From Cyanobacteriota bacterium (GTDB taxonomy: Bacteria > Cyanobacteriota > Cyanobacteriia > CACIAM-69d), in NCBI GenBank assembly GCA_022402445.1, contig JAKRSF010000009.1, positions 62,001-126,000 of the forward strand: a DNA stretch of 64,000 bases. Reading direction: 5' to 3'. Both the position numbers and the translations under genes were made by a program. The notes beneath the pieces were generated by a model. It did not search any database, was not told the DNA's origin, and saw only the letters and a list, made by a program, of their open reading frames with translations. Below are positions 4,267 through 50,198 of the stretch, one piece after another; the first letter of the stretch is position 1, and the number at the start of each line of letters is the position of its first letter.

Positions 4267-4410
4267 GCCCACCGATCCCCCCAAACCGGTTCAACGTCGG
4301 GGCTGTCCAGGGATCCTGGGGGCTGGGCGGGAAAACCCCGCCCCTACGGCGGTTGATCGGTCGGGGAACGGGATGATTTTGAGGCTCTGGTTTGAAGGCT
4401 GGGGCGGTTG

Positions 4411-6864: not shown

Positions 6865-7626
6865 CTATGAGGGCAAAACCTGGACGATCGCGATCGCGAC
6901 GGCGGCCCCGATGGCGGTATTGATTACGTTCATTAGTTCATTGGTCAGCCAGCCGTAGCGATCCTGGATCGTTGCGCCAAGGATACTTTCGGCGGTGGTG
7001 GCGACGGTGGCCGCGATCGCGCACCAGACCACCCCCAGCGGCGTCAGCAACCCCACCGCCAAGGCAACGAGTCCCTGGGCGATCGCGCCGACCAGGCCGG
7101 CAAAGGTGCCCTCCAGGCTCACGGCCCCTTCCGTCCCGGCGGGCACCGGTTGCAGGGAAATGATCGAAAAGGTGCGGCGGCCATAGGCTTTGCCGATTTC
7201 GCTGGCGCAGGTGTCCGAGAGTTTGGTGCAAAAGCTGGCGACATAGCCCAACACCAAATAGCCACGCCAGGGACTCTCGGGCGCAACGATCGCGATCGCC
7301 GCCACCCCCAACGCACACAGGGCCGCGATCGCCGCCGATCCCCACACATTTTCCGGGCCGCGCGCCCCCGATCGCTTCTCCGCAATGCCCGCCGCCGACT
7401 TGCGATCAAACCCCACCCGCGTCACCAGGGAGCCAACGAGAAAATAAAACATCACCACCGCATAACCGCGCCAGCCCAAGGTGCCCCACACCAGCACCCC
7501 CAACGCCCAGGCATGAACACTCCCCGCCAGCGTCAGCAACCGTTTCGGCAACAGGTACGAGCCGCCAAACAGGACCGAATTGAGTACAATCCCCACCAAC
7601 CATGGATGCTCCACCGCGATCGCCAT
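6865..7626 (-). CDS. DUF92/TMEM19 family membrane protein, phytyl-phosphate-kinase-like
   Basis: About 253 residues with six to seven hydrophobic segments. GSLVTRVGFDRK, ASFCTKLSDTCASEIGKAYG and QPVPAGTEGAVSLEGT are characteristic of the DUF92 family. The plant member VTE6 phosphorylates phytyl-phosphate to phytyl-diphosphate for tocopherol/phylloquinone synthesis, and cyanobacteria have homologues. The assignment to that reaction is by family only. ATG 7626 is chosen because GGGAGGTG precedes it. Confidence 0.8.
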   Translation of the reverse strand: MAIAVEHPWLVGIVLNSVLFGGSYLLPKRLLTLAGSVHAWALGVLVWGTLGWRGYAVVMFYFLVGSLVTRVGFDRKSAAGIAEKRSGARGPENVWGSAAIAALCALGVAAIAIVAPESPWRGYLVLGYVASFCTKLSDTCASEIGKAYGRRTFSIISLQPVPAGTEGAVSLEGTFAGLVGAIAQGLVALAVGLLTPLGVVWCAIAATVATTAESILGATIQDRYGWLTNELMNVINTAIGAAVAIAIVQVLPS

Positions 7627-7699
7627 GTCCCGCACCTCCCGCGCCCCAACCGTGTCCTAAAATCCGTTCGACCTCATCCTACTCAGTTCCCCCGCGCCC

Positions 7700-8218
7700 A
7701 TGACTGCCCTAAATCCTGGCCCGAACCTTTATAACGATCGCGCGATCGCCCCGGTCCTCTTCCACCTAGCCTTTCCCGTCGCCAATATTCCCGACACCAA
7801 GCGCTACTACATCGAAGGTCTAGGCTGCCACCTGGGGCGCGAATCCCCCAACAGCGCCATCTTGAATTTGTACGGCCATCAGTTGGTGGCCCACGTTAGC
7901 CGCGAAACCCTCACGCCCCAAAACGGCATCTATCCGCGCCACTTTGGCCTCGTGTTCACCCAGGAAAGGGATTGGCAGGATTTAGTAAACCGCGTCGAGC
8001 GGCAAAACCTAGGTTTCCATCAGGCCCCGCGCCGCCGGTTTGTGGGGGAGCCGCTGGATCATCACACAGCTTTTCTAGAGGACCCATTCCATAATTTGCT
8101 CGAATTTAAGTATTACTTTCATGCGGAGGCGATCTTTGGCCTGCGGGGCGATCGCCGCATCGGGGATGCCCAGGGGGATGCCCAGGCCGCCGCCGAGGTG
8201 CCCAAAGGCCAGTGCTAA
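7700..8218 (+). CDS. VOC (glyoxalase/dioxygenase superfamily) protein
   Basis: A 172-residue protein. [31 protein letters not shown] is a typical first VOC beta-alpha-beta unit, with a potential metal histidine. YPRHFGLVF and [12 protein letters not shown] match the second unit, with a histidine and a terminal metal-ligand glutamate. The substrate is unknown. The C-terminus is degenerate and Gly/Asp/Ala-rich. The gene lies 76 bp upstream of ftsH. Confidence 0.85.
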
Positions 8219-8294: not shown

Positions 8295-10247
8295 ATGGAA
8301 AAGGCTTGGCAGGCTCGTCCCCAGCGATCGCCCCAAACCGTTGGCCGCCGCCGCTCCAAACGGGCGGTCTGGTCCGGTGCGATCGCGGCCCTACTCCTGA
8401 CGCTGGCCGGTGGCCCCGCGATCGCCCAGCAGCAGCCGTCCCCCACGACCTTGAGCTATGGGGAATTGCTCAAAAATCTGGAGGCGGGCAAGGTCAAGGC
8501 CATTGAGGTCGATCGCAGCGGCCAGCGGGCGCGGGTGGAGTTGATCGAGAGCGGCGGCACCAAAACCTATGACGTGGTTCTGCTCGATCGCAATCCGGAA
8601 TTGGTGGAGCGGGCGCGCGATCGCGGCATTGTCATCGACGTGCGCGAATCGGTCGATAGCCTCGCCGCCGTGAATACCCTGGCGCAATTGATCCTCTTCG
8701 GGGCGATCGTGGCGGTGGTGATTGCCATTTTGCGGCGCACCGCCAGCGCGTCCGGGCAGGCGATGAATTTTGGCAAATCCCGCGCCAAGTTCCAGATGGA
8801 AGCGAAGACGGGCATCCTGTTCGACGATGTGGCGGGCGTCGAGGAGGCCAAGGAGGAACTGCAAGAGGTGGTGTCGTTCCTCAAAACGCCGGACCGGTTC
8901 ACCGCGATCGGCGCAAAAATTCCTAAGGGCGTTTTATTGGTCGGCCCTCCCGGCACCGGCAAAACCCTCCTGGCGAAGGCGATCGCGGGGGAGGCGGGCG
9001 TGCCATTTTTCAGCATTTCCGGCTCCGAATTCGTGGAAATGTTCGTCGGCGTCGGCGCATCGCGGGTGCGGGATCTGTTCAAAAAAGCCAAGGACAATGC
9101 CCCCTGCATCGTCTTCATTGATGAAATCGACGCCGTAGGTCGCCAGCGGGGGGCGGGCATCGGCGGCGGCAACGACGAGCGCGAACAGACCCTCAACCAA
9201 CTGCTGACGGAGATGGACGGCTTCGAGGGCAATACGGGGGTGATCATCATCGCCGCCACCAACCGCCCCGATGTGCTCGATACGGCCCTGCTGCGGCCCG
9301 GTCGTTTCGATCGCCAAGTCACCGTCGATCTGCCCAGCTATAAGGGGCGGCTGGGCATTTTGCAGGTCCATGCCCGCAACAAAAAACTCGCGCCCGAGGT
9401 GTCCATCGAGGCGATCGCCCAGCGGACCCCAGGATTTGCGGGGGCGGAGTTGGCGAACTTGCTCAATGAGGCGGCGATCCTGACGGCGCGGCGGCGCAAA
9501 TCGGCCATTACGCCCTTGGAAATTGACGACGCGATCGACCGCATTTCCATTGGGATGCAGCTTGCGCCGCTGCTCGACAGTAAGAAAAAGCGCCTGATCG
9601 CCTACCACGAGATCGGCCATGCCCTGCTGATGACCCTGCTGGAGCATTCCGATCCCCTCAATAAGGTGACGATCGTGCCGCGATCGGGGGGCGTGGGGGG
9701 CTTTGCCCAGCAGATTTTCAATGAGGACATGGTGGATAGTGGCCTCTATACCCGCGCTTGGATCCTCGACCGCATTGCGATCGCGTTGGGCGGTCGGGCG
9801 GCGGAGCAGGAAATTTTTGGGGAAGACGAGGTGACCGTCGGGGCCAGCAGCGACCTGAAGGTGGTGGCGGATCTGGCGCGGGAAATGGTCACCCGCTACG
9901 GCATGTCCGACCTGGGGCCGGTGTCCCTCGAAGATCCGAACAATGAAGTGTTCCTCGGGGGCGGCTGGAGTTCCCGGAGTAATTATTCCGAGGCGGTGGC
10001 GGTGAAGATCGATCACCAAATCCGGGAAATTGTCCAGGATTGCTACGATCGCGCCCGCCGCCTAATCCGGGACAACCGCGCCTTGGTCGATCGCCTCGTG
10101 GACACCCTCCTGGATCGCGAAGTGCTTGAAGGGGAAGAATTCCGCAACATCGTCCGGGAATATACCCAACTGCCCCAGAAGGACTACCCCGAAACCAAGC
10201 GCGATCGCGCCGCCGCCCCGGCCCTCCTCATCCAACCCCCCCGGTAG
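8295..10247 (+). CDS. ftsH: ATP-dependent zinc metalloprotease FtsH
   Basis: A membrane-anchored AAA+ protease that degrades misfolded membrane proteins; cyanobacteria carry several copies, some in photosystem II repair. Visible features are an N-terminal hydrophobic segment with signal-like AIAQQQ, a second membrane span at about 135-155, Walker A GPPGTGKT near residue 216, Walker [13 protein letters not shown] arginines in RPGRFDRQ near 335, and the zinc motif HEIGH near 438. Length is 650 residues from ATG 8295. The stop codon lies inside the left arm of an inverted-repeat element, so the last residues (QPPR) come from that element. Confidence 0.96.
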
Positions 10248-24730: not shown

Positions 24731-24837
<107 letters not shown>

Positions 24838-25493: not shown

Positions 25494-26564
25494 CTACTCC
25501 TCAAACGCCCGCCGCAGATCGTGCATGGTCATCCACAGGCGGTAGATGCGCTCATGGACATAGAGGCTGTGCCCCAGCATTCGGGCGATCACGGCGCTGT
25601 CTTTTTTGCCCAGCCAGTAGATCGCATAGGCATGGCGTAGGTCGTAGGGAGCAAAGGGGCAACCGGCGCGGCGGAATGCGGTGGTGACCCGGTGGCCCAA
25701 GGCGGAATTGTTAGGGCCGCTGCAATCGGGGCGGACGATCGCGGCAAGTTCCCAGTCTTCAAACCACCGCAGGCTGCGGGGATAGGCGATCCGCAGTTTG
25801 CCGGTTTTGCTCTGGGCTGATATTTCGAGCCAGGGGGGATCGATCGCGCGGGCCAAAAACACTTCATGGGGCCGCAGACCGTAGGCGGCGATCGCACCGT
25901 AAACCCATCGCCATTCCGGTTCTTTGAACAGCCGCCGCGCGGCCTCAATTTCGGCGGCGCTGGGCAGGATTCGGGGCGCGGCCATGGCGGGACCGTAGCG
26001 GCCCTGGTATTGCCGCACATCCACCGGGCAGCGGGCAAAGTCTGCCAGGGCTTGAAATGCACGGGCCATGCGTTGCCGCGATCGCGTGTCCGGCTCCGTC
26101 AGCCGTAGCAGGGTTTGGGTCAGGATCTCGGGGGTGAGGGGTTCCGGTAGGGGCAATCGCTTCAGGGGCCGGTAGTAGTCAATTTCCCAGGTGGTGAGGG
26201 TTTTGGGGGTGCGGCGGCGACGGTTGAAGTAGAACTGCTCAAATTCGGCGATCCAGTCGGCGATCGCGCGCTTTTCTGCCCTTGTCCCCCAGTTTTCCCA
26301 CTGGAAGGAACCCCCCAGAATTTCCCGCGATAGGCGACGGGCCAAGCGTTCGGCGGCGCGGATCGCATCGACGGTGGCAGGAAACCCGAGGGCGATCGCG
26401 CGGGTTTTGCTCAGGCCGGCGGGCTCCCCTGGCTTGGGGGGGAGGGGTGCCGTGAGGCTGACAGCTCGAGTTTTGGCGCGCCAATCGACCTTGATCCGGG
26501 CGATCGCGCCATCACGTTTCAGGCGACCGTTGGCCGATCGCAGTTCAAGTTCTGGGTCTGGCAT
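25494..26564 (-). CDS. Tyrosine recombinase (element integrase)
   Basis: A 356-residue protein. The C-terminal catalytic domain shows the first Arg in YGLRPHEV, a Lys in the beta-hairpin (SKTGKLR), box II as YDLRHAYA (Tyr where His is more usual), MLGHS with the second His, and the nucleophile Tyr in ERIYRLW. The N-terminal part (TPKTLTTWEIDYYRPLKRL) fits an arm/core-binding SAM-like domain. It is adjacent to the tRNA-Phe attL and co-directional with the methyltransferase. It is expected to catalyse integration/excision at the 76-bp core. Confidence 0.93.
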   Translation of the reverse strand: MPDPELELRSANGRLKRDGAIARIKVDWRAKTRAVSLTAPLPPKPGEPAGLSKTRAIALGFPATVDAIRAAERLARRLSREILGGSFQWENWGTRAEKRAIADWIAEFEQFYFNRRRRTPKTLTTWEIDYYRPLKRLPLPEPLTPEILTQTLLRLTEPDTRSRQRMARAFQALADFARCPVDVRQYQGRYGPAMAAPRILPSAAEIEAARRLFKEPEWRWVYGAIAAYGLRPHEVFLARAIDPPWLEISAQSKTGKLRIAYPRSLRWFEDWELAAIVRPDCSGPNNSALGHRVTTAFRRAGCPFAPYDLRHAYAIYWLGKKDSAVIARMLGHSLYVHERIYRLWMTMHDLRRAFEE

Positions 26565-26589: not shown

Positions 26590-26672
26590 GGCGATCGCGA
26601 GTGATCGCGCGGTGATCGGAAGTGATCGCGAGTGATCGCACGGTGATCGGATGCGATCGCGAGTGATCGCCC
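26590..26672. repeat. Tandem 31-bp repeat with eight phased GATC sites
   Basis: Two full 31-bp units (26590-26620, 26621-26651) and a partial third (26652-26672) lie in the gap before the recombinase gene. Each unit holds three GATC sites within GTGATCGC- or GTGATCGG-type words. The eight GATC starts, 26593 to 26665, are spaced 10, 11, 10, 10, 11, 10 and 10 bp, close to one helical turn. It is a candidate control or arm-type binding array for the recombinase gene or a replication-linked site. Confidence 0.85.
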
Positions 26673-27593: not shown

Positions 27594-27616
27594 AGTGGTG
27601 TGTTCTCTGGGAAAGC

Positions 27617-27977
27617 GATCAACATGATCAACAAAATCGCTGGATGGCTTACGGGGCGCGGCGTTGACCCTGTTGATCGTGCGATCAACATCGATCAACA
27701 CGATCAACATTGATCAACAAATCTGTGAAGAAATGGCTGAAACCTTTGCGGGGTAAGTGTTGCCGCTGATTTTGGCCGTGCCAACACTGGCGATGGGGGC
27801 GGGGCGGCAGCGCGAGACCCCAGAATCCCAGTAAGCCCCGCTACGCTTGCGTTTGCGGCGTTTCTGCTGGAGTCTGCGGGCGGTTGTTGATCATGTTGAT
27901 CGTTGTTGATCGCACGATCAACAGGGTCAACGGCTGACGGGGCGGGCGATTCGGGCAATGTGTTGATCATGTTGATC
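27617..27977. repeat. Iteron unit X: inverted pair of TGTTGATC arrays
   Basis: Thirteen exact copies of TGTTGATC/GATCAACA are present. Array b' starts at 27617, 27626, 27671 (inverted), 27683, 27693, 27702 and 27712. Array a' starts at 27885, 27894, 27904, 27916 (inverted), 27961 and 27970. Spacings are 9-45-12-10-9-10 and, mirrored, 9-10-12-45-9. Each array contains a 20-bp dyad. Degenerate half-sites (GTTGACCC, GGGTCAAC) also occur. Not CRISPR: spacers are 1-4 bp and there are no cas genes. Likely protein-binding iterons (inference). Confidence 0.92.
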
Positions 27978-27980
27978 ACT
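27828..27980 (-). pseudogene. Duplicated remnant of the primase 3' end
   Basis: Read on the minus strand, this stretch encodes INMINTLPESPAPSAVDPVD followed by RAINNDQHDQQ. It aligns with the C-terminus of the adjacent primase (IDMIDKTAETPATPDVNPVD, then RVIDNDRQDRQ). DNA similarity continues to the position of the primase stop, where TTACTGA has become TTACTGG. No start codon or upstream part of the gene is present. It marks a tandem duplication of about 415-425 bp that created iteron units X and Y. Confidence 0.8.
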
Positions 27981-28030
27981 TCTCCAGAGTCGGGGCAACA
28001 GGCGATGGTTTGTTGTTCTCTTAGGAAAAC

Positions 28031-28402
28031 GATCGACATGATCGACAAAATCGCTGTATCGCTTTCCGTGCTTGGGTTTGAGTGTGTCGATCGCATGATC
28101 GACAGTGATCGACATGATCGACAGCGATCGACAAAACAGGTGTGAAATAGCTAAAATGCTTACAGGCTAAGGGTTGTGGCGATCCAATAGCCAAGATTTC
28201 GGGGGCGGGGATTCGGGCGGTGTCGATCGCGTTTTGCGTGGGGCGATATCGTCAGTAAGACCCGCCCCGTCTACGTTTCGGGCGTTTCTCGCTGGATTTG
28301 TCGATCATTTGTCGATCCTGTCGATCGTTGTCGATCACGCGATCGACAGGGTTAACGTCAGGCGTGGCGGGCGTTTCGGCGGTTTTGTCGATCATGTCGA
28401 TC
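28031..28402. repeat. Iteron unit Y: inverted pair of TGTCGATC arrays
   Basis: Fourteen exact copies of TGTCGATC/GATCGACA form two arrays. Array b starts at 28031, 28040, 28085 (inverted), 28097, 28107, 28116 and 28126. Array a starts at 28299, 28310, 28319, 28329, 28341 (inverted), 28386 and 28395. A lone copy sits at 28221. Array b has exactly the spacing of b' in unit X; array a mirrors it. Array a lies inside the coding 3' end of the primase gene. All copies differ from unit X at the same base (C for T). Confidence 0.93.
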
Positions 28403-30972
28403 GCTTTGCTAGAAGAAATCGGAACCGACAGCACCCCATCGGCAAATGTGCAGCCAGGGATGGTGTTGCAGATGGCCTCGAATCGCTCCCGCACATGGGC
28501 AGCCTTGAGGTTTGAGCGCCGCAGGATGGACCGCTGGCATTCCCTCACGGTGATTTGCCCGCCCTTCGCTTCAGCAGCCTTATAGATTTTGAACAGTTGC
28601 CCCGTCAGGGGGTGGCCTTCGGTCTCTTCGCTGTAGGCTTGCACCAACAGAAATTGGCCACAGTAGAACTCGCTGAGGTTGGCGGCCCGTTCGGCGGTGT
28701 CGGTGCCGATCGCGGTGGGGAACTCGGTGGTGTTGTCCCCCAAGGCCCATTCAACGCAATGGAGCCACAGGGCCAGCCGGGGCATGTAGCTGCACTGTTT
28801 CCCCAGGAAGAACGCAAACGCGGGATTGGATTCTTGATACTTGAGGTATCCCCGCCGGTAGCGCTCCCACTGGCGACGCCAGATCGCCCCCGCCCCGGTG
28901 CTGAAGGTGAGGACGCAGTTGGGCACCCGTCGCAATTGGCGGTAGAGGTGATCGATGGAGCCGTAGATATCCACGGTCACGTCGGACCATTCGGCGAAAT
29001 TGTCCGGCAGGGATGGGCGCGCTGGCAGAAACCGCGACAGCAGCCCGTCCGGGTCATCTACCAGGGCGAAATGTTTGGCGGCCAATTTCGGCTGCAATCC
29101 CCCGGCGATGTTGAGGGTTTGGCCCTTGAGTCGTAGGGAGCCCGAGCGATCGCTGTATTCCTTCCTGATGGCTAGGGGTTTGTTCCATGCCGTCAAAAGC
29201 AACTGGCGGCTATTGCCCTTGCCGGAGCCTTTATATTGATCCAGCCCGGAAAATAGGCCCGCTAATTCGTCCTTAACCCAGCATGAGCCTGAGTTTGGGG
29301 GGTTGTCGGCTAAGCGCTTTAGGATGGCTTCCATTTCCCCCTCGTTCAGGACGTAGGTTCGGCGGTTGCCGATCATCTCCTCCCGGAAGACCTTGGGGTT
29401 GGCCGTGCTTTCAAAATTCTCGGCCTTCTCCTGGGGTTTCATGGCTTCCCAGGCTTGGGCGATCGCCTCCAGTTCCGCTTCACATTTCTCGATGCGGGCG
29501 TCTTCGGCGTCCTGCATGGCGTACAGGGGCGCAAAAATTGCATCTTGCGCCGCTGATTTGCCGCTGCTGGGGGGTGATACGTCGTTGGTCCAGAAGATTG
29601 GGCTCTCGATCCAATCGTCCTGGCTGGCGTGGCCTTTTTTGGCGATGACCTGGACCCGGCCGCCGAGGATGACGCCACAGGCGGGGAGTAGGTTTTGCAG
29701 CAGGCGGATCGGGTCGATGCGATCGCTCTGGGCTTTGGTGGTGAAGGCGCGGGCGAGGGCGTCGGGGAGGATGCCGTGGGGGTCGAAGGGTTTGCTGGCG
29801 CGATCAATGAGCGATCGCAACTCCAGGGAGTCCCGATCAAGGCGATCGCGCTCTTCCCGCTCCCGCTGGGTGGCTTCGATGAGGCGGCGGATGGATTGCT
29901 CGGTGCGATCGCTGGCGGCGGCGAGGCGGGGGATTTCCATCTCCATCTCGCTGTCGCTGGCGTCGAGGATGCGATCAATCTCCCGCCGCAAGTCCTCTAG
30001 GGATAGGGTGTCTGGGGAGGTTGTGGCGCTAGGGGTGGGGTCTGGGGTCCGGGGGGTGGTGTCGGGCCGCTGGGGTTCTAGGTTGCCCAGAATGTCGTCG
30101 GGTGTGGCTCCAGCGGCCAGCCAGTCGGCAATGTCGAGCCCCTTATCTCTGGGTAGGGATGCCTCGCTCCAGTCGAGGTCGGGCCATGGGTAGAGCCATT
30201 GGGCGTCGGGGTGATCGGCGGCGATCGCGCGGGCATATTTCAGGCCGTTTTTGTCCCGGTCGGGCACGATGACGATCCGGGCCCTGGCGAAATCCTGGCT
30301 GTAGTCGCCATAGCTGCCGTAGGCCCCGCCGCCGCCGATGGTGGTGGTGGCATGGAACCCCAGGGCAGCGAGGGCATCGGCACAGGGTTCGCCCTCGACC
30401 CAAAAGATCAGTTCACCGGCGGCGGCGGCTTTGGTGAGTTCGTGGTAGCGGAAGGGGGCGATCGCCTGTTTGAGGGGATCTTTGGTGGCGTCGTCCACCT
30501 GTCCGCCCTTGCGCCATGCGGTGTTGCCGATCCAATATTCTTGCCAGATGGTGCGCTTGCCGGTGCCGTCGTCAATGCGGCGGGTGCGGATCAGGGGGTT
30601 GCCCTGGCGATCGCTGTAGTGCCAGACGCGATCGCCCTTGGGCCGGATGGTTTTTTCGGTGGGGATGGGCCACCGGCTGGTGGCGGCGGGGGGCATGGGT
30701 GGGGCCGGTGGTCTGGGGGCCGGTCGGGGGCGGCGGCGCTTGGGTGGGCGATCGCCGTCGGGGGCGTTGGGATTCACCGGGGGGTTGATGGCATCGCGGA
30801 TGGCTTTTTTATGGGCCTCATCGTCGGGATAGTCCCAGCACTGCCATTTCCCGTCTTTGGTGCTGATCTTCAGGTTGCCGCCGTCGCACACGGGGCAATT
30901 GGCAACAATCTGGGTCCGGGTCTGTTTGGTGATCTCCAGATTGTCGAGGTGATCGAGGATGTTGAAGGTCAT
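28252..30972 (-). CDS. TOPRIM/DUF3987 primase-helicase
   Basis: A 906-residue protein. The N-terminal zinc-finger-like region has CPVCDGGNLKISTKDGKWQC. The TOPRIM domain is seen as ELIFWVEGEPCADALAALGF with PDRDKNG (E and DxD). The DUF3987 P-loop domain has FWTNDVSPPSSGKSAAQDA and a Walker B-like CWVKDELAGLFSGLDQY. The C-terminal 40 residues are encoded by iterons and rich in I/D/R/Q. Such proteins replicate phage satellites, plasmids and tycheposon-type elements. ATG 30972 forms ATGA with the upstream stop, indicating translational coupling. Confidence 0.88.
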   Translation of the reverse strand: MTFNILDHLDNLEITKQTRTQIVANCPVCDGGNLKISTKDGKWQCWDYPDDEAHKKAIRDAINPPVNPNAPDGDRPPKRRRPRPAPRPPAPPMPPAATSRWPIPTEKTIRPKGDRVWHYSDRQGNPLIRTRRIDDGTGKRTIWQEYWIGNTAWRKGGQVDDATKDPLKQAIAPFRYHELTKAAAAGELIFWVEGEPCADALAALGFHATTTIGGGGAYGSYGDYSQDFARARIVIVPDRDKNGLKYARAIAADHPDAQWLYPWPDLDWSEASLPRDKGLDIADWLAAGATPDDILGNLEPQRPDTTPRTPDPTPSATTSPDTLSLEDLRREIDRILDASDSEMEMEIPRLAAASDRTEQSIRRLIEATQREREERDRLDRDSLELRSLIDRASKPFDPHGILPDALARAFTTKAQSDRIDPIRLLQNLLPACGVILGGRVQVIAKKGHASQDDWIESPIFWTNDVSPPSSGKSAAQDAIFAPLYAMQDAEDARIEKCEAELEAIAQAWEAMKPQEKAENFESTANPKVFREEMIGNRRTYVLNEGEMEAILKRLADNPPNSGSCWVKDELAGLFSGLDQYKGSGKGNSRQLLLTAWNKPLAIRKEYSDRSGSLRLKGQTLNIAGGLQPKLAAKHFALVDDPDGLLSRFLPARPSLPDNFAEWSDVTVDIYGSIDHLYRQLRRVPNCVLTFSTGAGAIWRRQWERYRRGYLKYQESNPAFAFFLGKQCSYMPRLALWLHCVEWALGDNTTEFPTAIGTDTAERAANLSEFYCGQFLLVQAYSEETEGHPLTGQLFKIYKAAEAKGGQITVRECQRSILRRSNLKAAHVRERFEAICNTIPGCTFADGVLSVPISSSKAIDMIDKTAETPATPDVNPVDRVIDNDRQDRQMIDKSSEKRPKRRRGGSY

Positions 30973-31235
30973 TCCGGTGCCCCCCCATCCCAGTCGGTGT
31001 TTTCGCTGTGGCTGACGGGCGAAAGGTCGTGGACGACCAGGGAGGTGACCCACACGATCGCGCGGACGATGCCCTTGTGGTTGGTCTGGCTGCCCTGGTG
31101 TTCGATCGCGTACTTCACGGCGTCATGGGGGTGCCCTTCGCGGGGCCAGAGTCCGGCGGTGAGGGCGATCGCCATCCTCATGGATTCCATCTTGGTGAGG
31201 GTGACGATGATGGGGGTGGCGGGATGCAAATTCAT
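30969..31235 (-). CDS. Hypothetical element protein
   Basis: An 88-residue protein starting MNLHPATPIIVTLTKMESMRMAIALTAG. A short hydrophobic stretch (GIVRAIVWVTSLVVHDL) precedes an acidic tail ENTDWDGGAPE. No family is recognised. Its start and stop both form ATGA overlaps with neighbouring genes, strong evidence that it is translated in the primase operon. Confidence 0.7.
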   Translation of the reverse strand: MNLHPATPIIVTLTKMESMRMAIALTAGLWPREGHPHDAVKYAIEHQGSQTNHKGIVRAIVWVTSLVVHDLSPVSHSENTDWDGGAPE

Positions 31236-38522: not shown

Positions 38523-39236
38523 ATGACCTACACCACCAACGGCCACACCCCCGGCGCTGAGCAGCGCATCGCGATCGACCCCGCCACTGGCCTTGCTATG
38601 GGCTACGCTCCAGCAGAAAACAACGCCCCTTTGAACCTCCCGCCGCCGCCCAGCGAAGCAGCACCCCCGCCCCCTCCAGCACCCGCACCGGCTCCAGCGC
38701 CAGCACCCGCACCGGCTCCAGCGCCAGCACCCCCACCGGCCCCAGCACCAGCGCCCGCCGCATCCAAGCCCACCATCGGGCAACGGGTGGATAATTTCGC
38801 CAGCCGTCTCTCCAAGCCGAAACCGCCCCAGCCCGCCGCGATCGCCTCTACCAACACCGTTGAGGTGGAACTGGTGGGGCAGAAGGTGGAACGGCTCACC
38901 CGCGAGGTGGCGATCGAGGTGGACGCGACCTGGTGGGGGAACTGGGTTAACGAGCCCAGCGGTCGCATTGTGGCCGGTGCCCTGCTGGGGTGGGGATTAC
39001 GTCGGTGGATCCCCTGGCTTGCGGGGGCTGGCCTGTTCTCCGTGGCGTCCGGCGTCTCCCTTGGCGTGGCGATCATCATGCACGGCGATCGATTCGTGAG
39101 GCCCGCCACAGCCCAACGGGCAGGGGTGATCGTGATAATCGCCGCGATCGCCCTTCAAATCAGCCCGCCGCGCCCGAACTTCGCCATCCCCGAATGGCTC
39201 AACAATTTCCTGTATCCCCCAACCCAAGTCCGGTGA
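38523..39236 (+). CDS. Proline-rich membrane protein
   Basis: A 237-residue protein. Residues about 40-80 are an Ala-Pro repeat that would form an extended rod. A beta/coil segment (NTVEVELVGQKVERLTREVAIEVDATWWGNWVNEPSG) is followed by two or three TM helices (IVAGALLGWGLRRW, LAGAGLFSVASGVSLGVAIIM, AGVIVIIAAIALQI). An extended Pro-rich arm on a membrane base recalls TonB-like or phage-assembly proteins. It overlaps the ATPase gene by one base (TGATG). Confidence 0.7.
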   Translation: MTYTTNGHTPGAEQRIAIDPATGLAMGYAPAENNAPLNLPPPPSEAAPPPPPAPAPAPAPAPAPAPAPAPPPAPAPAPAASKPTIGQRVDNFASRLSKPKPPQPAAIASTNTVEVELVGQKVERLTREVAIEVDATWWGNWVNEPSGRIVAGALLGWGLRRWIPWLAGAGLFSVASGVSLGVAIIMHGDRFVRPATAQRAGVIVIIAAIALQISPPRPNFAIPEWLNNFLYPPTQVR

Positions 39237-40471
39237 TGAGCATCATTCAAATCCAAACCCAAGCCCATCAATGGGTGGGGGCGTGGCTATCGGCGGGCTT
39301 CACCCCGGATCGCATCCGCAAGGAAGCAGCGGCCCGAGAAATGCCAGAAGAGGCCCGCCGCGCGATCGCCGATGCCCTACTGGCCTACGCGGCGGATTGT
39401 GCGATCCGCCCCCAACATTCCCCGGAGGCGATCCGGGGGGCGCTGGCCCGGTTGGCAGCCGGTGGTCTCGATTTATCCGATCTGCGGCAATGGTGCCGCC
39501 AAAACCTTAACCGGGCCGATCTGGACGTGGCCGAAAGGCTGCTGAAAAACGAGGAATCCCGCCGCGCCGCCCTGCCCGCCGCCCGCCCTGACGCGATCGC
39601 CCCATGGTCCGTCCTGTTGCCCCAGGGCGATCGCTTCAAGCACGTCCTGATCTTGGGGTCCACCAACGGCGGCAAAACCTGCCTGACCGAATGGCTAGGG
39701 CACCAACAGCCCGGATTCGTGCGGGTGCTGACCACCAAGCGCAAGGCGACCCAGTGGAGGGGGATGGAGGTGATCGGCCACCCCCGCGATTACGCCGCCC
39801 TCAAGGTGGCATGGGAGGCGCTCATCTCCGAAATGGACCGCCGCCTAGGGTTGATCGACCACGCGGGTACGGCCTATCAGCACCTCAATGTGTTGGTGGA
39901 CGAATTGCCCGCTCAGGCGGCGAACCTGGGAAAAGATCATCAGCACTGGCTATCCACCCTGCTACGCGAGTCGCGAGAGTCCCTGATCCGGCTGTTCGTT
40001 TTGGTCCAGGGGGGGCAGTTGAAGACCATCGGGCTCGAAGGGGAAAGCGACCTTAAGGGATGCCTGCACTGGGTCCGATTGGGCAAATTCGCCCGCAGCC
40101 ATGCCCAAAAACTCTATCGCGATGGCCTGTGCGATCGCGCGGCCCTCGACTGGGTTTTACAGCAGCGCTACCCGGCCACGATTGACGACGCGATCGCGGA
40201 GGTGCCGGACCTCACCCACTGGCAACCGGGCACCGCGTCCCACACCTTCCCAAGCCCTTCCACTGCTGAAGCGTTCAGAAGCCACGGAAGCCCTGTGGTA
40301 GTAGGCGCTTCCACCATTTCGGTCCCTTCCCAGGAAGCCGACGTAGACCCGCAAAAGCTGCAAACGGTTCGGCTTTTGATGGGGTCGGGGGTCAGCAAAA
40401 CCCGCGCGATCGAGCAGGTGTTTGGCTGTTCTGGGGGCCGACAATTTCAGCGGATTTCGTCGCTGCTGTAG
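39236..40471 (+). CDS. P-loop ATPase (FtsK/HerA- or packaging-type)
   Basis: A 411-residue protein. An N-terminal helical region (about 1-130) precedes the ATPase core: FKHVLILGSTNGGKTCLTEWL (Walker A GSTNGGKT), HLNVLVDELP (Walker B) and RLFVLVQGGQLKTIGLEG (sensor-like). The C-terminus LQTVRLLMGSGVSKTRAIEQVFGCSG looks like a winged/HTH DNA-binding tail. It could pump DNA in virion packaging, conjugation or partition. Last gene of the membrane-protein operon, followed by a terminator. Confidence 0.75.
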   Translation: MSIIQIQTQAHQWVGAWLSAGFTPDRIRKEAAAREMPEEARRAIADALLAYAADCAIRPQHSPEAIRGALARLAAGGLDLSDLRQWCRQNLNRADLDVAERLLKNEESRRAALPAARPDAIAPWSVLLPQGDRFKHVLILGSTNGGKTCLTEWLGHQQPGFVRVLTTKRKATQWRGMEVIGHPRDYAALKVAWEALISEMDRRLGLIDHAGTAYQHLNVLVDELPAQAANLGKDHQHWLSTLLRESRESLIRLFVLVQGGQLKTIGLEGESDLKGCLHWVRLGKFARSHAQKLYRDGLCDRAALDWVLQQRYPATIDDAIAEVPDLTHWQPGTASHTFPSPSTAEAFRSHGSPVVVGASTISVPSQEADVDPQKLQTVRLLMGSGVSKTRAIEQVFGCSGGRQFQRISSLL

Positions 40472-43283: not shown

Positions 43284-45320
43284 GTGGGAGTCCCTGAGTG
43301 GTTCGCAGGTATTTCTGAGGGTGCATCGGCCCTACAGGCGGCGCTTTCCGATCCCGATCAAGCGCTGACCTTTGTCAAAGACGCCGTAGATATGGCGGAC
43401 TTGATCCTACCTGGGGATGGCCTAACTGTTCCCATCGGCCCCTTCGAGATTGAAATTGAATCAGTTGAGGGCGAAAAGGACTGGCTAGAGCCCAATTCCC
43501 CCGGTAGCAACTGGTATTCCGATAGAACCGGCGACCCCCCAAGCCCCTTCGACTGTGAACGGTGGCCCAACTCGCCATTCTGTCAGAGCGTCCTAGATAC
43601 CGTTAAGGAGGGATGGTTTGGGATTGGCGTTTCAATCTCGATTTCCGAGAACGAAATTTGCATCAATCCCACATTCACTATCGCGTTTTTCACAATGCCG
43701 ATGGGGAATTTTTGCTATCGGCGGACCCCAGAAGAGGAACCGGAGCCCGAACCCCCAACGTTTAACGATCAAGACGGCCCTCTCTGTACGGGGTGCTTAC
43801 CGCCAACCAGGAAACCGGCCCTCTGGGGTTTATATGATTACAGTCGATCCTACTGGGTTGTCGAGTCTGTCCCAGTGTTTGATCGAATGACCAATACTTG
43901 CAGCATGACCCCCCCTCAGCAACAGGGGATAGATCACGTTGGCAGTGGAACCTTTGGCGGCGTGTGCCCCCCTGCTAGGAGCTTGCCGCTGCGTAGGATT
44001 ATTCAAGGGGATTTTGATTTAAAAGATCCTGAAAACCAAGTCCGCTACCAATACTGGGTTAACGATTTTCCGTTCCGCAGATTCTCAAATTGCACCGCCA
44101 TTGTCTTTAGTAAATTCCAAAATGTCGTAAGAGACCCTGAACGTAAGTATGGCGTTCGCGTCATTGACACCAGGACATCATCGGGTGGCCACGATCAAAT
44201 CGACTCCTACACGCAATATTTCTGGAAAGCATCGGACGATCTAGCGGATCGGGTCGCGGCCATTCGGGTAAATTCTGAGTATTCAACTAGGCTAAGGCCA
44301 ATCCCGCGAGAAATTACCGGCACCTACTGGAATGGCTTTAGAAATGTTCCCTATAATTGCGGAACCTCTAACAAATATTGGACTGATGTTGTTAAACGAG
44401 TTGTGGCCCCTGCTGTCGTCGAGACGGGTGATCGCCGCCGCCCAGAACCCCCGCCCTTAGACCGGAGACCTGAAGATATGGGATGTTGTCCAGAAACCCA
44501 AGACCAATTGCAGTGGTTGGTCAAAAAGTTGGGCTTAAATCGCCTGCCTGTGGCGGCGACGGAATCTATTACTGCGGATGAAGAAAAAACGATCCGACTG
44601 GATAGTTTGGTGGAGTTGGTTCACCACGGCGCTAAGTCTACCCTGGAGGTGCTGGGGGAATGGCCGGTCAAGATCGAGATTCGCACGGATGAGGGGGAGG
44701 AATCAGGTGAAATCAAGCTCCCCAACGTGGCGGAAACCCTCGCGGAACTGTTTGGTCTGGAGTTTGGCACGTCGCGCGATTCTGATGCTGCCTATGCCGC
44801 CGCGATCGCGGGCTTAGGCGTCTCCAGTTCAATCCTGTCCACCCTGATCTCAACCCTGGACCGTGTTGAAGCCCTCAGCGAGTTTGTGGGAGGGCGCGTC
44901 AAAGCAGTTACCCGCGAATATGAATTGCCGTTTGATCCATTCGCGGACCCTGGCACTACTTCCCAAGAGAAGCTGTTTACCCGAACCTTGGTCAAGACTG
45001 AAGGCTGGGAAAACGATGACAAGCTGGTTTTAGCCACCCTTGTTTCAGAGATCAGGGAACAAATCAAACTTTTAGAAGCGGTGTTTGTAGAGCGAGGCCA
45101 TCCAGAACAGTTGATGGGGCGTCTTCAAAAACTTGCAGATTTAGCCAAAGGGGTCGTTTCCGCATCGGAAATGCCAGAAGAAGACAAGAGTTGGCGGCAA
45201 ACGGTCACTGAATTGGAGACACAGGTTAACACTTACCTTGAAGCTAATGGAATGCAAAAGGTTAAGCTCAACATCAAAGGACAAATGACCGACACGCCGA
45301 AAGAGGATCCCAAGCCATGA
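43284..45320 (+). CDS. Large hypothetical element protein
   Basis: A 678-residue protein from GTG 43284. Features in order: helical start FAGISEGASALQAALSDPDQ, a beta-region (GDGLTVPIGPFEIEIESVEG), a Cys-containing part with acidic-Pro linker EEEPEPEPP and CTGCLPP, a Tyr/Arg-rich middle, and a helical C-terminal third (VSSSILSTLISTLDRVEALSEFVGG, IREQIKLLEAVFVERGH). GC content is visibly lower than in flanking genes and HIP1 sites are nearly absent. No family recognised. Overlaps the next ATG (ATGA). Confidence 0.65.
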   Translation: MGVPEWFAGISEGASALQAALSDPDQALTFVKDAVDMADLILPGDGLTVPIGPFEIEIESVEGEKDWLEPNSPGSNWYSDRTGDPPSPFDCERWPNSPFCQSVLDTVKEGWFGIGVSISISENEICINPTFTIAFFTMPMGNFCYRRTPEEEPEPEPPTFNDQDGPLCTGCLPPTRKPALWGLYDYSRSYWVVESVPVFDRMTNTCSMTPPQQQGIDHVGSGTFGGVCPPARSLPLRRIIQGDFDLKDPENQVRYQYWVNDFPFRRFSNCTAIVFSKFQNVVRDPERKYGVRVIDTRTSSGGHDQIDSYTQYFWKASDDLADRVAAIRVNSEYSTRLRPIPREITGTYWNGFRNVPYNCGTSNKYWTDVVKRVVAPAVVETGDRRRPEPPPLDRRPEDMGCCPETQDQLQWLVKKLGLNRLPVAATESITADEEKTIRLDSLVELVHHGAKSTLEVLGEWPVKIEIRTDEGEESGEIKLPNVAETLAELFGLEFGTSRDSDAAYAAAIAGLGVSSSILSTLISTLDRVEALSEFVGGRVKAVTREYELPFDPFADPGTTSQEKLFTRTLVKTEGWENDDKLVLATLVSEIREQIKLLEAVFVERGHPEQLMGRLQKLADLAKGVVSASEMPEEDKSWRQTVTELETQVNTYLEANGMQKVKLNIKGQMTDTPKEDPKP

Positions 45321-46876
45321 GTTTAACTTTGGTCAAGTCGGCTTTGGCTTCCAGAACCATTCGCAAGGCTTTGGGCGGAGAAAAGGAAAAAAGCGGCATT
45401 AGGTTGATTGATCTGCGGTCTCAGATCAAAGTTAAGGAAGGGGACGAAGAAAAGAACGTCATACAAAAAATATGGAATTTTTTCAGCGGTGCCGGTGGCT
45501 GGTTAATGGGAGCCCTCAAGGGGCTTGTTAGCCCAATCGCCTCTTCCCTCGGGGGGCTTTGGAGTATGGCAACCCAAGGTGTTTATCAGTTGTTCTTCTT
45601 CGATTGGAATGTATCAGATGAACAAATTGATAAGCAAATTAAAGCGGCATGGGAAGCAGCGGCGGGTGCCCTAGGCGAGGCGGTTGGCTATGCTTTGGGT
45701 GGGGGGCTCAACATTGGGGCGAGCACCCTGATTCCCAAAATTGGGCCATCTGTTGCAGCTTATGCCTTGGGAGAATTTACAGAAGAGGCTTGGGCGGAAT
45801 TTAAGGGGGCCTTTAAGACAATCATGAATACAGCGGCCCGAACGGCGGGGTTGCTGGCCTTTAAAGGGGCACGCTTTTCTATCAAGGCCATTGGTGAACA
45901 GTTGCCATTGCCAGAAAGTTGGAAAAAGAGTCTTCGATCATGGGGGGATGGCAAAAAGCCATTTATTGTCTACAAGGCTGTTGAAGAATGGATTGAAAGC
46001 AATTTTGATGGGATGCTCGAAAAGTTTTTGGTGGGCAAATGGGAGGGTTTTTTTGAAGGCTGGATGGAGACGGGGATGATCGTCGCGGGGGCCATTGATG
46101 CCACCTTGGCGGCGATGAAGGCCCAGAAAGATCAGGGCGGCACACCCCGGACCCTCGAAATTGACCTGTATCCCAAGGAAGACAAGGCCGGATCGGAAGG
46201 CTCGGGCGATAAGGATGATAAAGGCGGCAAGCCTGAGCAGGGCAAGGTTCTGCTGAATGCGCCCCAGCCGCTGCTGAAGCAAATGGTCTACTCCACCTTG
46301 GCGCAGCATCAGATATTGGGCGATCGCAGCGTTGGCCTACTGGTGGGCCAGCCCGCCGAGGAGTTTGTGGCGGCGCGGCTGCTGACCCGGCAATTGACCC
46401 TTGTATTCCGGCGCGGGGCCAGCAAGCCGCCCTGGAAAGACGGCACCAAAACCGCCGGAACCACCACCGTCACCATCCCCAACCCCAAGGTGGGCCTGAG
46501 TTGGAACAACATCAAATCCGCTTGCAGCAAGTGGACATGGGGCGAGTTTGAGGCGTCCTGCTTGCTCAGTTCGGGGCGGATCCTGAAGGTGCGCGGATCG
46601 TCGCCAGACGAAGCCAGGGATAAGGCGAAACAGCTATTGGCGCTGTCTTCGGACGAATACCACGCCATCAATGTCACCCAGGAAATGGAGCGCCACCCCG
46701 AACTCAAAAAGCGGCCCCAGATCGCCTATCCCGCGCGGGGGACGCTGTTGGTGCGGCGGGCCAGCACCACATTGGAAGGGCGCACGGACCTGAAGGGCAA
46801 CCGCTGGACTGAAACGCCCGTGCATTTTGACCTGTGGCCCGACAGCGAGCCGCCTGGGCTCGAACCGTTCCCCTAA
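45317..46876 (+). CDS. Large hypothetical protein with hydrophobic segments
   Basis: A 519-residue protein. The N-terminal half has several Gly/Ala-rich hydrophobic helices (FFSGAGGWLMGALKGLVSPI, AAGALGEAVGYALGGGLNIG, MNTAARTAGLLAFKGA), suggesting membrane interaction. A charged Lys/Gly/Asp linker (KEDKAGSEGSGDKDDKGG) leads to a C-terminal domain, PAEEFVAARLLTRQLTLVFRRG and onward. Coupled to the preceding gene. Could be a membrane-penetration or tape-like protein of a particle, but that is speculation. Confidence 0.65.
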   Translation: MSLTLVKSALASRTIRKALGGEKEKSGIRLIDLRSQIKVKEGDEEKNVIQKIWNFFSGAGGWLMGALKGLVSPIASSLGGLWSMATQGVYQLFFFDWNVSDEQIDKQIKAAWEAAAGALGEAVGYALGGGLNIGASTLIPKIGPSVAAYALGEFTEEAWAEFKGAFKTIMNTAARTAGLLAFKGARFSIKAIGEQLPLPESWKKSLRSWGDGKKPFIVYKAVEEWIESNFDGMLEKFLVGKWEGFFEGWMETGMIVAGAIDATLAAMKAQKDQGGTPRTLEIDLYPKEDKAGSEGSGDKDDKGGKPEQGKVLLNAPQPLLKQMVYSTLAQHQILGDRSVGLLVGQPAEEFVAARLLTRQLTLVFRRGASKPPWKDGTKTAGTTTVTIPNPKVGLSWNNIKSACSKWTWGEFEASCLLSSGRILKVRGSSPDEARDKAKQLLALSSDEYHAINVTQEMERHPELKKRPQIAYPARGTLLVRRASTTLEGRTDLKGNRWTETPVHFDLWPDSEPPGLEPFP

Positions 46877-50122: not shown

Positions 50123-50198
50123 CTGAAAATCCTCGTGTCGGCGGTTCAAGTCCGCCTCCTGGCATTCTCTAAAACCCATATCCCGCAAGGGTTTGAGC
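50123..50198. repeat. attR: 76-bp attachment core
   Basis: Identical to 24762-24837. It carries only the anticodon-loop-to-3' part of tRNA-Phe, without the first 31 nt, so it is not a second tRNA. It marks the right end of the element; beyond it the two flanks share only scattered bases. Confidence 0.95.

Follow-up and report, generated by a model that had tools for sequence, protein, structure and literature searches.

A pair of repeat arrays in an integrated cyanobacterial element is very probably the replication origin of that element, present as two side-by-side copies. The arrays occupy positions 27617-28402 of the window, the stretch of 64,000 nucleotides of contig JAKRSF010000009.1 analysed here, and it appears likely that they form an iteron-type origin of the P4/SaPI kind, bound by the C-terminal winged helix of the adjacent primase-helicase and since duplicated, with a different allele of a specificity base in each copy. 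The original prediction held that the region may be a replication origin, and an origin of the iteron type is now supported by the anatomy of the arrays, the constraint on their sites, their conserved linkage to DUF3987 genes and a geometry shared between loci; from these observations we infer origin function, binding by the winged helix and which of the two units is active.

An exact scan found 33 matches to TGTYGATC in the window against 3.45 ± 1.68 expected (100 shuffles, maximum 8), 28 of which fall within 27617-28402. They comprise 13 copies of TGTTGATC in 27617-27977 (unit X) followed by 15 copies of TGTCGATC in 28031-28402 (unit Y) with zero mixing, exactly as had been counted before, and the two-site combination TGTYGATCNTGTYGATC has no other occurrence across the 4.08-Mb genome. 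The left arm of unit X (27617-27719, minus strand) carries seven TGTTGATC sites, at 27617 (-), 27626 (-), 27671 (+), 27683 (-), 27693 (-), 27702 (-) and 27712 (-), with a spacing of 9-45-12-10-9-10. A core of 165 bp (27720-27884; 61% GC, without a site) separates it from the right arm (27885-27977, plus strand), whose six sites at 27885 (+), 27894 (+), 27904 (+), 27916 (-), 27961 (+) and 27970 (+), spaced 9-10-12-45-9, mirror the left arm. In unit Y the left arm (28031-28133, minus strand) has seven TGTCGATC sites, at 28031 (-), 28040 (-), 28085 (+), 28097 (-), 28107 (-), 28116 (-) and 28126 (-), with the same 9-45-12-10-9-10 spacing as the left arm of X. The Y core (28134-28298), again of 165 bp but with 55% GC, holds a lone TGTCGATC at 28221-28228 (+) and the stop codon of the primase gene at 28252-28254. 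Seven sites make up the right arm (28299-28402, plus strand), at 28299 (+), 28310 (+), 28319 (+), 28329 (+), 28341 (-), 28386 (+) and 28395 (+), spaced 11-9-10-12-45-9; this is one site more than in the right arm of X (28299, 11 bp outward), and the arm lies within the 3' part of the primase gene, which codes for the tail of the protein. The mirror-symmetric architecture first described therefore stands with its pairing corrected, since the identical pair consists of the two left arms and the right arms are their mirrors, rather than one array pair being identical and the other pair its mirror images. Neither core is notably AT-rich, which counts against an origin.

Units X (approximately 27603-27990) and Y (approximately 28017-28415) are repeated in direct orientation at a distance of about 414-425 bp with 72-74% identity, each with TGTTCTCT at its start, and judged from their sequence they are a diverged duplication. 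An open frame through the right arm and core of X (27704-28096, minus strand) encodes a peptide, GEVINMINTLPESPAP..., that resembles the primase tail, SKAIDMIDKTAETPAT...; this frame is probably a remnant, copied from the 3' end of the gene for the primase, and not an independent gene. In gapless alignments of the arms the spacers of X and Y differ at 44 of 115 positions (38%), whilst the site bases other than base 4 differ at none of 91 and base 4 differs at all 13 of 13; at the spacer rate, the probability of zero changes in 91 positions by chance is near 1e-19. Relative to the reading frame of the primase, base 4 occupies codon phases 2, 2, 1, 3, 1 and 1, the sites lie in both orientations, and the differences between X and Y show no excess at third positions. 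A switch of base 4 that runs across all codon phases and both orientations argues for selection or constraint on the DNA sites, and selection on the encoded peptide was rejected on the strength of the codon phases and the divergence pattern.

The uniformity of base 4 within each unit had been ascribed in the original prediction either to a protein that reads the base or to concerted conversion within a unit. Spacer columns that divide the four arms two against two split X from Y in four cases and left from right in three, and base 4 splits by unit in six of six; the spacer columns thus give no sign of blanket homogenisation inside units. Blanket gene conversion within units was rejected for this reason, and a part of the earlier claim that fits the data is that the base is read from the DNA. 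Methylation at CGATCG was likewise rejected as the driver, since a G follows only seven of the 15 Y sites and relatives carry TGTGGATC and TGTAGATC alleles; an effect of GATC methylation on initiation is possible because GATC is retained in all four base-4 alleles.

The units lie in an integrated element of approximately 25.4 kb that occupies a tRNA-Phe gene (24731-24803) and is bounded by exact direct repeats of 76 bp on the plus strand, attL (24762-24837), which begins in the tRNA-Phe, and attR (50123-50198). A tyrosine integrase (25494-26564, minus strand; PHROG integrase 9.3e-9) is encoded near the left repeat, and relatives of it adjoin ten other DUF3987 loci. Six GTGATCG motifs, mostly 10-11 bp apart, lie between the integrase and an HNH-like ORF (26601-26669) and are possibly arm-type sites of the integrase or an excisionase. 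Elsewhere the element (24762-50198) has a gene for a P-loop ATPase-like protein (38990-40471), and of its two large ORFs (43284-46876) the second weakly matches a tape-measure protein; it may be phage-like or satellite-like. Searches of viral and genome contigs at the protein level returned no close relatives, and no DNA similarity of the arrays to plasmids or phages was found.

The proposed initiator is a primase-helicase of 933 amino acids (28252-31053, minus strand) with a toprim-type primase region, a DUF3987 ATPase (residues 455-805), a C-terminal winged helix and a tail encoded by the iterons. Its gene lies upstream of unit Y and overlaps it, and with the stop codon inside the Y core the right arm of Y is coding. 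DUF3987 (PF13148) was the sole domain in the Pfam scan (2.9e-31; 109.4 bits against a cut-off of 27), PHROG helicase/primase families also matched, and no PDB sequence match was found. An AlphaFold2 model built from an alignment of 18 sequences, from which the plasmid loci were left out, has a mean pLDDT of 80 and places after the ATPase a helix-strand-helix-helix-strand-strand succession, a predicted winged helix encoded at 28393-28626 (minus strand) that we propose, from AlphaFold2 and Foldseek, as the iteron reader. When ATPase and winged helix were searched together with Foldseek, MCM helicases ranked first with three matches at E <0.001 (best 3.6e-4) and TM-scores of only approximately 0.3-0.4, a weak but consistent signal. 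The last domain alone matched winged-helix proteins, none at E <0.01, and a PriRep1 structure came only at rank 50. A separate ORF, orf27093, was considered as a split-off C-terminal domain of the primase and rejected for want of similarity.

Of the 291 genomes of the class, 76 have a match to the primase, and so have 42 plasmid records, some only 7 kb long. Among 84 DUF3987 loci, which are partly redundant and non-independent so that the counts are descriptive, clustering of a 7-mer is significant at 55, with 6-16 copies where shuffled sequence reached 5 at most; about a third have no significant array, which counts against the origin reading, and GC skew in related plasmids does not mark the arrays. 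At 35 loci the whole cluster falls within the 3' end of the DUF3987 frame, at 11 it overlaps the stop codon, at one it comes just past it and at eight it lies elsewhere. Some 50 related loci of cyanobacteria, plasmids among them, and a single plasmid of Priestia have their own array of 7-8 bp sites within the final few hundred bases of the DUF3987 gene, each element with an iteron of its own, for example TGTCTACCG, GTCTACTTT, GACTACTG, TTGTCACCG and TGTAGATT. Three DUF3987 plasmids of Crinalium PCC 9333 have three different iterons, and in the Priestia megaterium plasmid TGTCTACG-like sites with spacings of 9, 12 and 44 bp stand directly 3' of the DUF3987 frame, whilst the DUF3987 plasmids of Sulfitobacter and Salinibacter, two of the three non-cyanobacterial plasmids tested, gave no convincing array. 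Mirror symmetry is widespread, with at least 60% of the sites mirrored in 27 of 48 distinct arrays against two to four expected from random placement. Two apparently identical DUF3987 loci with arrays lie approximately 102 kb apart on a single contig (contig 70 of G141).

The same survey bears on what the sites are kept for. At all 35 loci with in-frame arrays the DUF3987 frame is open through the array (approximately 2% by chance) and both other frames are closed in 33 of the 35, as would be expected if the repeats were maintained for a low-complexity primase tail and not as DNA sites. That explanation is highly improbable, since X and the left arm of Y lie outside the primase frame and have kept their sites, inverted copies encode different peptides, and third positions show no excess of X-Y differences. 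Across the DUF3987 loci L041-L129 most arrays sit within the coding tail of the gene and are usually open in that frame alone, so that the iterons also serve as a low-complexity tail of the protein, and several of these proteins extend into a further C-terminal region beyond it.

The gene content around the arrays bears on the binding protein. An RHH protein (32256) had been suggested as a binder, and the arrays could in principle be operators or a partition/centromere site for it or for another small DNA-binding protein (35111) instead of an origin: 8-bp sites at steps of 9-10 bp suit cooperative RHH binding in general, and a 56B_RHH-like protein is encoded nearby. Of the element genes tested beside related arrays, the integrase recurs at ten loci and the HNH ORF at one, and apart from the primase no other does. 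Neither RHH-like protein has a relative at other array loci, whereas every array adjoins the DUF3987 gene and lies at its 3' end or inside it; with none of the small proteins recurring at related loci, they were rejected as the main binder, and we regard an operator or partition site as very unlikely.

When 84,980 species genomes were scanned for the site pattern, any letter being allowed at base 4, one additional MAG was found, of the same family. The closest relative (L047) is a single mirrored unit of TGTGGATC with spacings 9-43-12-11-9 and 9-11-12-43-9, its halves 98 bp apart; one of its sites reads CGTGGATC, and base 4 is uniform. At a contig end, L068 preserves one half of a unit, in which four sites read TGTAGATC and two read TGTCGATC. 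Base 4 thus takes all four letters (T, C, G and A) across this small group; three units have the same letter throughout, and one has a mixture. Mixing of 8-mers within homologous units, which had been put forward as evidence against the prediction, is accordingly present in the half-array and absent at base 4 of L047, and from the mixture of A and C in L068 base 4 may be read loosely.

Since the right arm of unit Y belongs to the resident primase gene, Y is most likely the cognate origin. For unit X the likeliest alternatives are an origin of the older specificity that recombination left behind or captured, and an accessory unit tolerated by the same protein; the explanations of X below are weighed on the condition that the region is an origin of this kind. 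One is that X and Y diverged in separate related elements with their own initiators and were joined recently by tandem integration or recombination, X being a passenger conserved only through its function in the former element. Such a history is a serious possibility, a little short of an even chance: X holds the duplicated last codons of a primase tail, the 38% spacer difference is as expected of two related elements, base 4 varies between elements of the same family, and origin duplication does occur, with L059 having two units of the same iteron and spacing (7633-7855 and 9292-9505), the second 1.6 kb downstream. Against it, neither the 84,980 species genomes nor the viral contigs yielded an element with a single X-type unit, and TGTTCTCT at both unit starts also fits a simple tandem duplication.

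The looser reading of base 4 would allow an initiator that accepts both T and C, the split between units having arisen by concerted change (slippage or template switching) without functional meaning. Besides the mixture in L068, this is favoured by run-level variants elsewhere, such as the array at 6887-7101 of a 7.6-kb Oscillatoria plasmid (L041), in which one three-site run reads AGTGGAC and the other sites TGTGGAC, and by the inner block of X, which is 96% complementary between the arms. We nevertheless consider it somewhat unlikely, as the informative spacer columns (four X|Y, three left|right) are not homogenised within units and the base is common to inverted arms approximately 250 bp apart and to sites 45 bp away.

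A functional dual specificity, in which the element keeps two complete origins, its 28 iterons split at one specificity base and each origin fired by a different initiator, its own or that of a relative, was judged rather unlikely. X would here be read by the initiator of a co-resident plasmid or related element, so that the element is replicated by, titrates or excludes its relative, and two incompatibility-like specificities, as first proposed, are possible. The seven constrained bases are intact in all X sites and base 4 splits the units without exception, whereas the element's primase is the only DUF3987 gene in the genome, a search there for a second DUF3987 initiator found none, and there is no second such array, so that no second reader for X is evident and an unseen partner is needed. 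No other surveyed locus has two complete units with different iterons. L171 and L176 were rejected as further two-array loci, having unrelated heptads or unsegregated mixtures and no clean two-unit split; in L171 (2504-2941, near the DUF3987 gene) TCACCAA sites adjoin a 7-bp tandem GTCACCA run.

The preferred reading, a duplicated iteron origin served by the adjacent primase-helicase, suggests the following course of events. After excision of the element, the primase-helicase would bind the 8-bp sites of an origin unit with its winged helix and assemble as one oligomer on each arm, the two facing each other, and would open the DNA, prime, unwind and start replication. Base 4 would be the specificity base of the winged-helix contact, drifting between elements, and the origin would have been duplicated in tandem, or the origin of a relative acquired, leaving X and Y with different base-4 alleles.

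On this reading an unexplained repeat becomes a probable origin, and a pattern emerges across cyanobacteria and one Firmicute plasmid in which DUF3987 initiator genes carry an iteron array at their own 3' coding end, often with mirror symmetry, such that origins and initiator specificity become predictable for many elements whose replication is unannotated. The X/Y pair would be a natural experiment, with two constrained origin units on one molecule that are one base per site apart, suited to questions of how initiator specificity changes and of replicon compatibility. If the dual-specificity replicon were true, a single base pair would separate incompatibility groups in a large family of origins, hitherto undescribed, that lie within DUF3987 initiator genes.

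The earlier statement that no described system has this arrangement is not supported: the P4 ori and crr and many cyanobacterial DUF3987 loci share the plan, and SaPI origins lie just downstream of the initiator helicase gene (PMC7581432). In the GenBank record of phage P4, 8-bp type I repeats, most commonly TGTTCACC, are annotated in crr directly 3' of the alpha gene, at 4314, 4323 and, inverted, 4366 (spacing 9-43-18-14, the unit recurring at +180), and in ori with spacings of 10-11-22-43-10. One arm in the window agrees with P4 ori except for roughly one helical turn in a single interval. Across 48 arrays a pair followed at about 43 bp by an inverted site occurs in 18, against 6.7 for random positions and 13 for permuted gaps, so that this motif by itself is only moderately distinctive. 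Like the present protein, P4 alpha is a Zn-ribbon/toprim-type primase fused to a helicase, with a C-terminal DNA-binding domain. The two proteins have no sequence similarity (BLASTP, best E 0.07), the DUF3987 ATPase takes the place of the P4-type SF3 helicase, P4 ori and crr have one iteron sequence in common where X and Y differ, and P4 ori is about 4.7 kb away from crr where X and Y are adjacent. In SaPI/PICI islands the initiator helicase Rep reads iterons through its C-terminal domain, the origin follows directly downstream of the gene, and binding as two hexamers has been proposed (PMC7581432); SaPIs have a separate primase and a different helicase family, and no report of two iteron alleles in one island was found. 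In lambdoid phages the iterons lie inside the coding sequence of the initiator O that binds them (PMC7466680). Lambda O has neither primase nor helicase, and its iterons are longer and not set in mirrored arms. The cyanobacterial plasmid proteins CyRepA1 and CyRepA2 combine a toprim-like domain with a helicase-type domain and drive autonomous replication (PMC10079941, PMC10899382), but they are defined by DUF3854 and DEXDc domains, which the Pfam scan of the present primase did not show; those papers do not mention iterons, and the control region lies upstream of the gene. DUF3987 proteins have been described as predicted novel helicases of mobile elements (PMC5862659), and a DUF3987/DUF5906 primase is involved in the replication of PICMI satellites (PMC10803314); no iteron origin was found in the relevant passages of either paper, and no paper on DUF3987 origins was found in the literature searched, which took in few subscription titles. 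The general arrangement is therefore known in kind, and two iteron alleles coexisting in one element were seen nowhere else in this survey.
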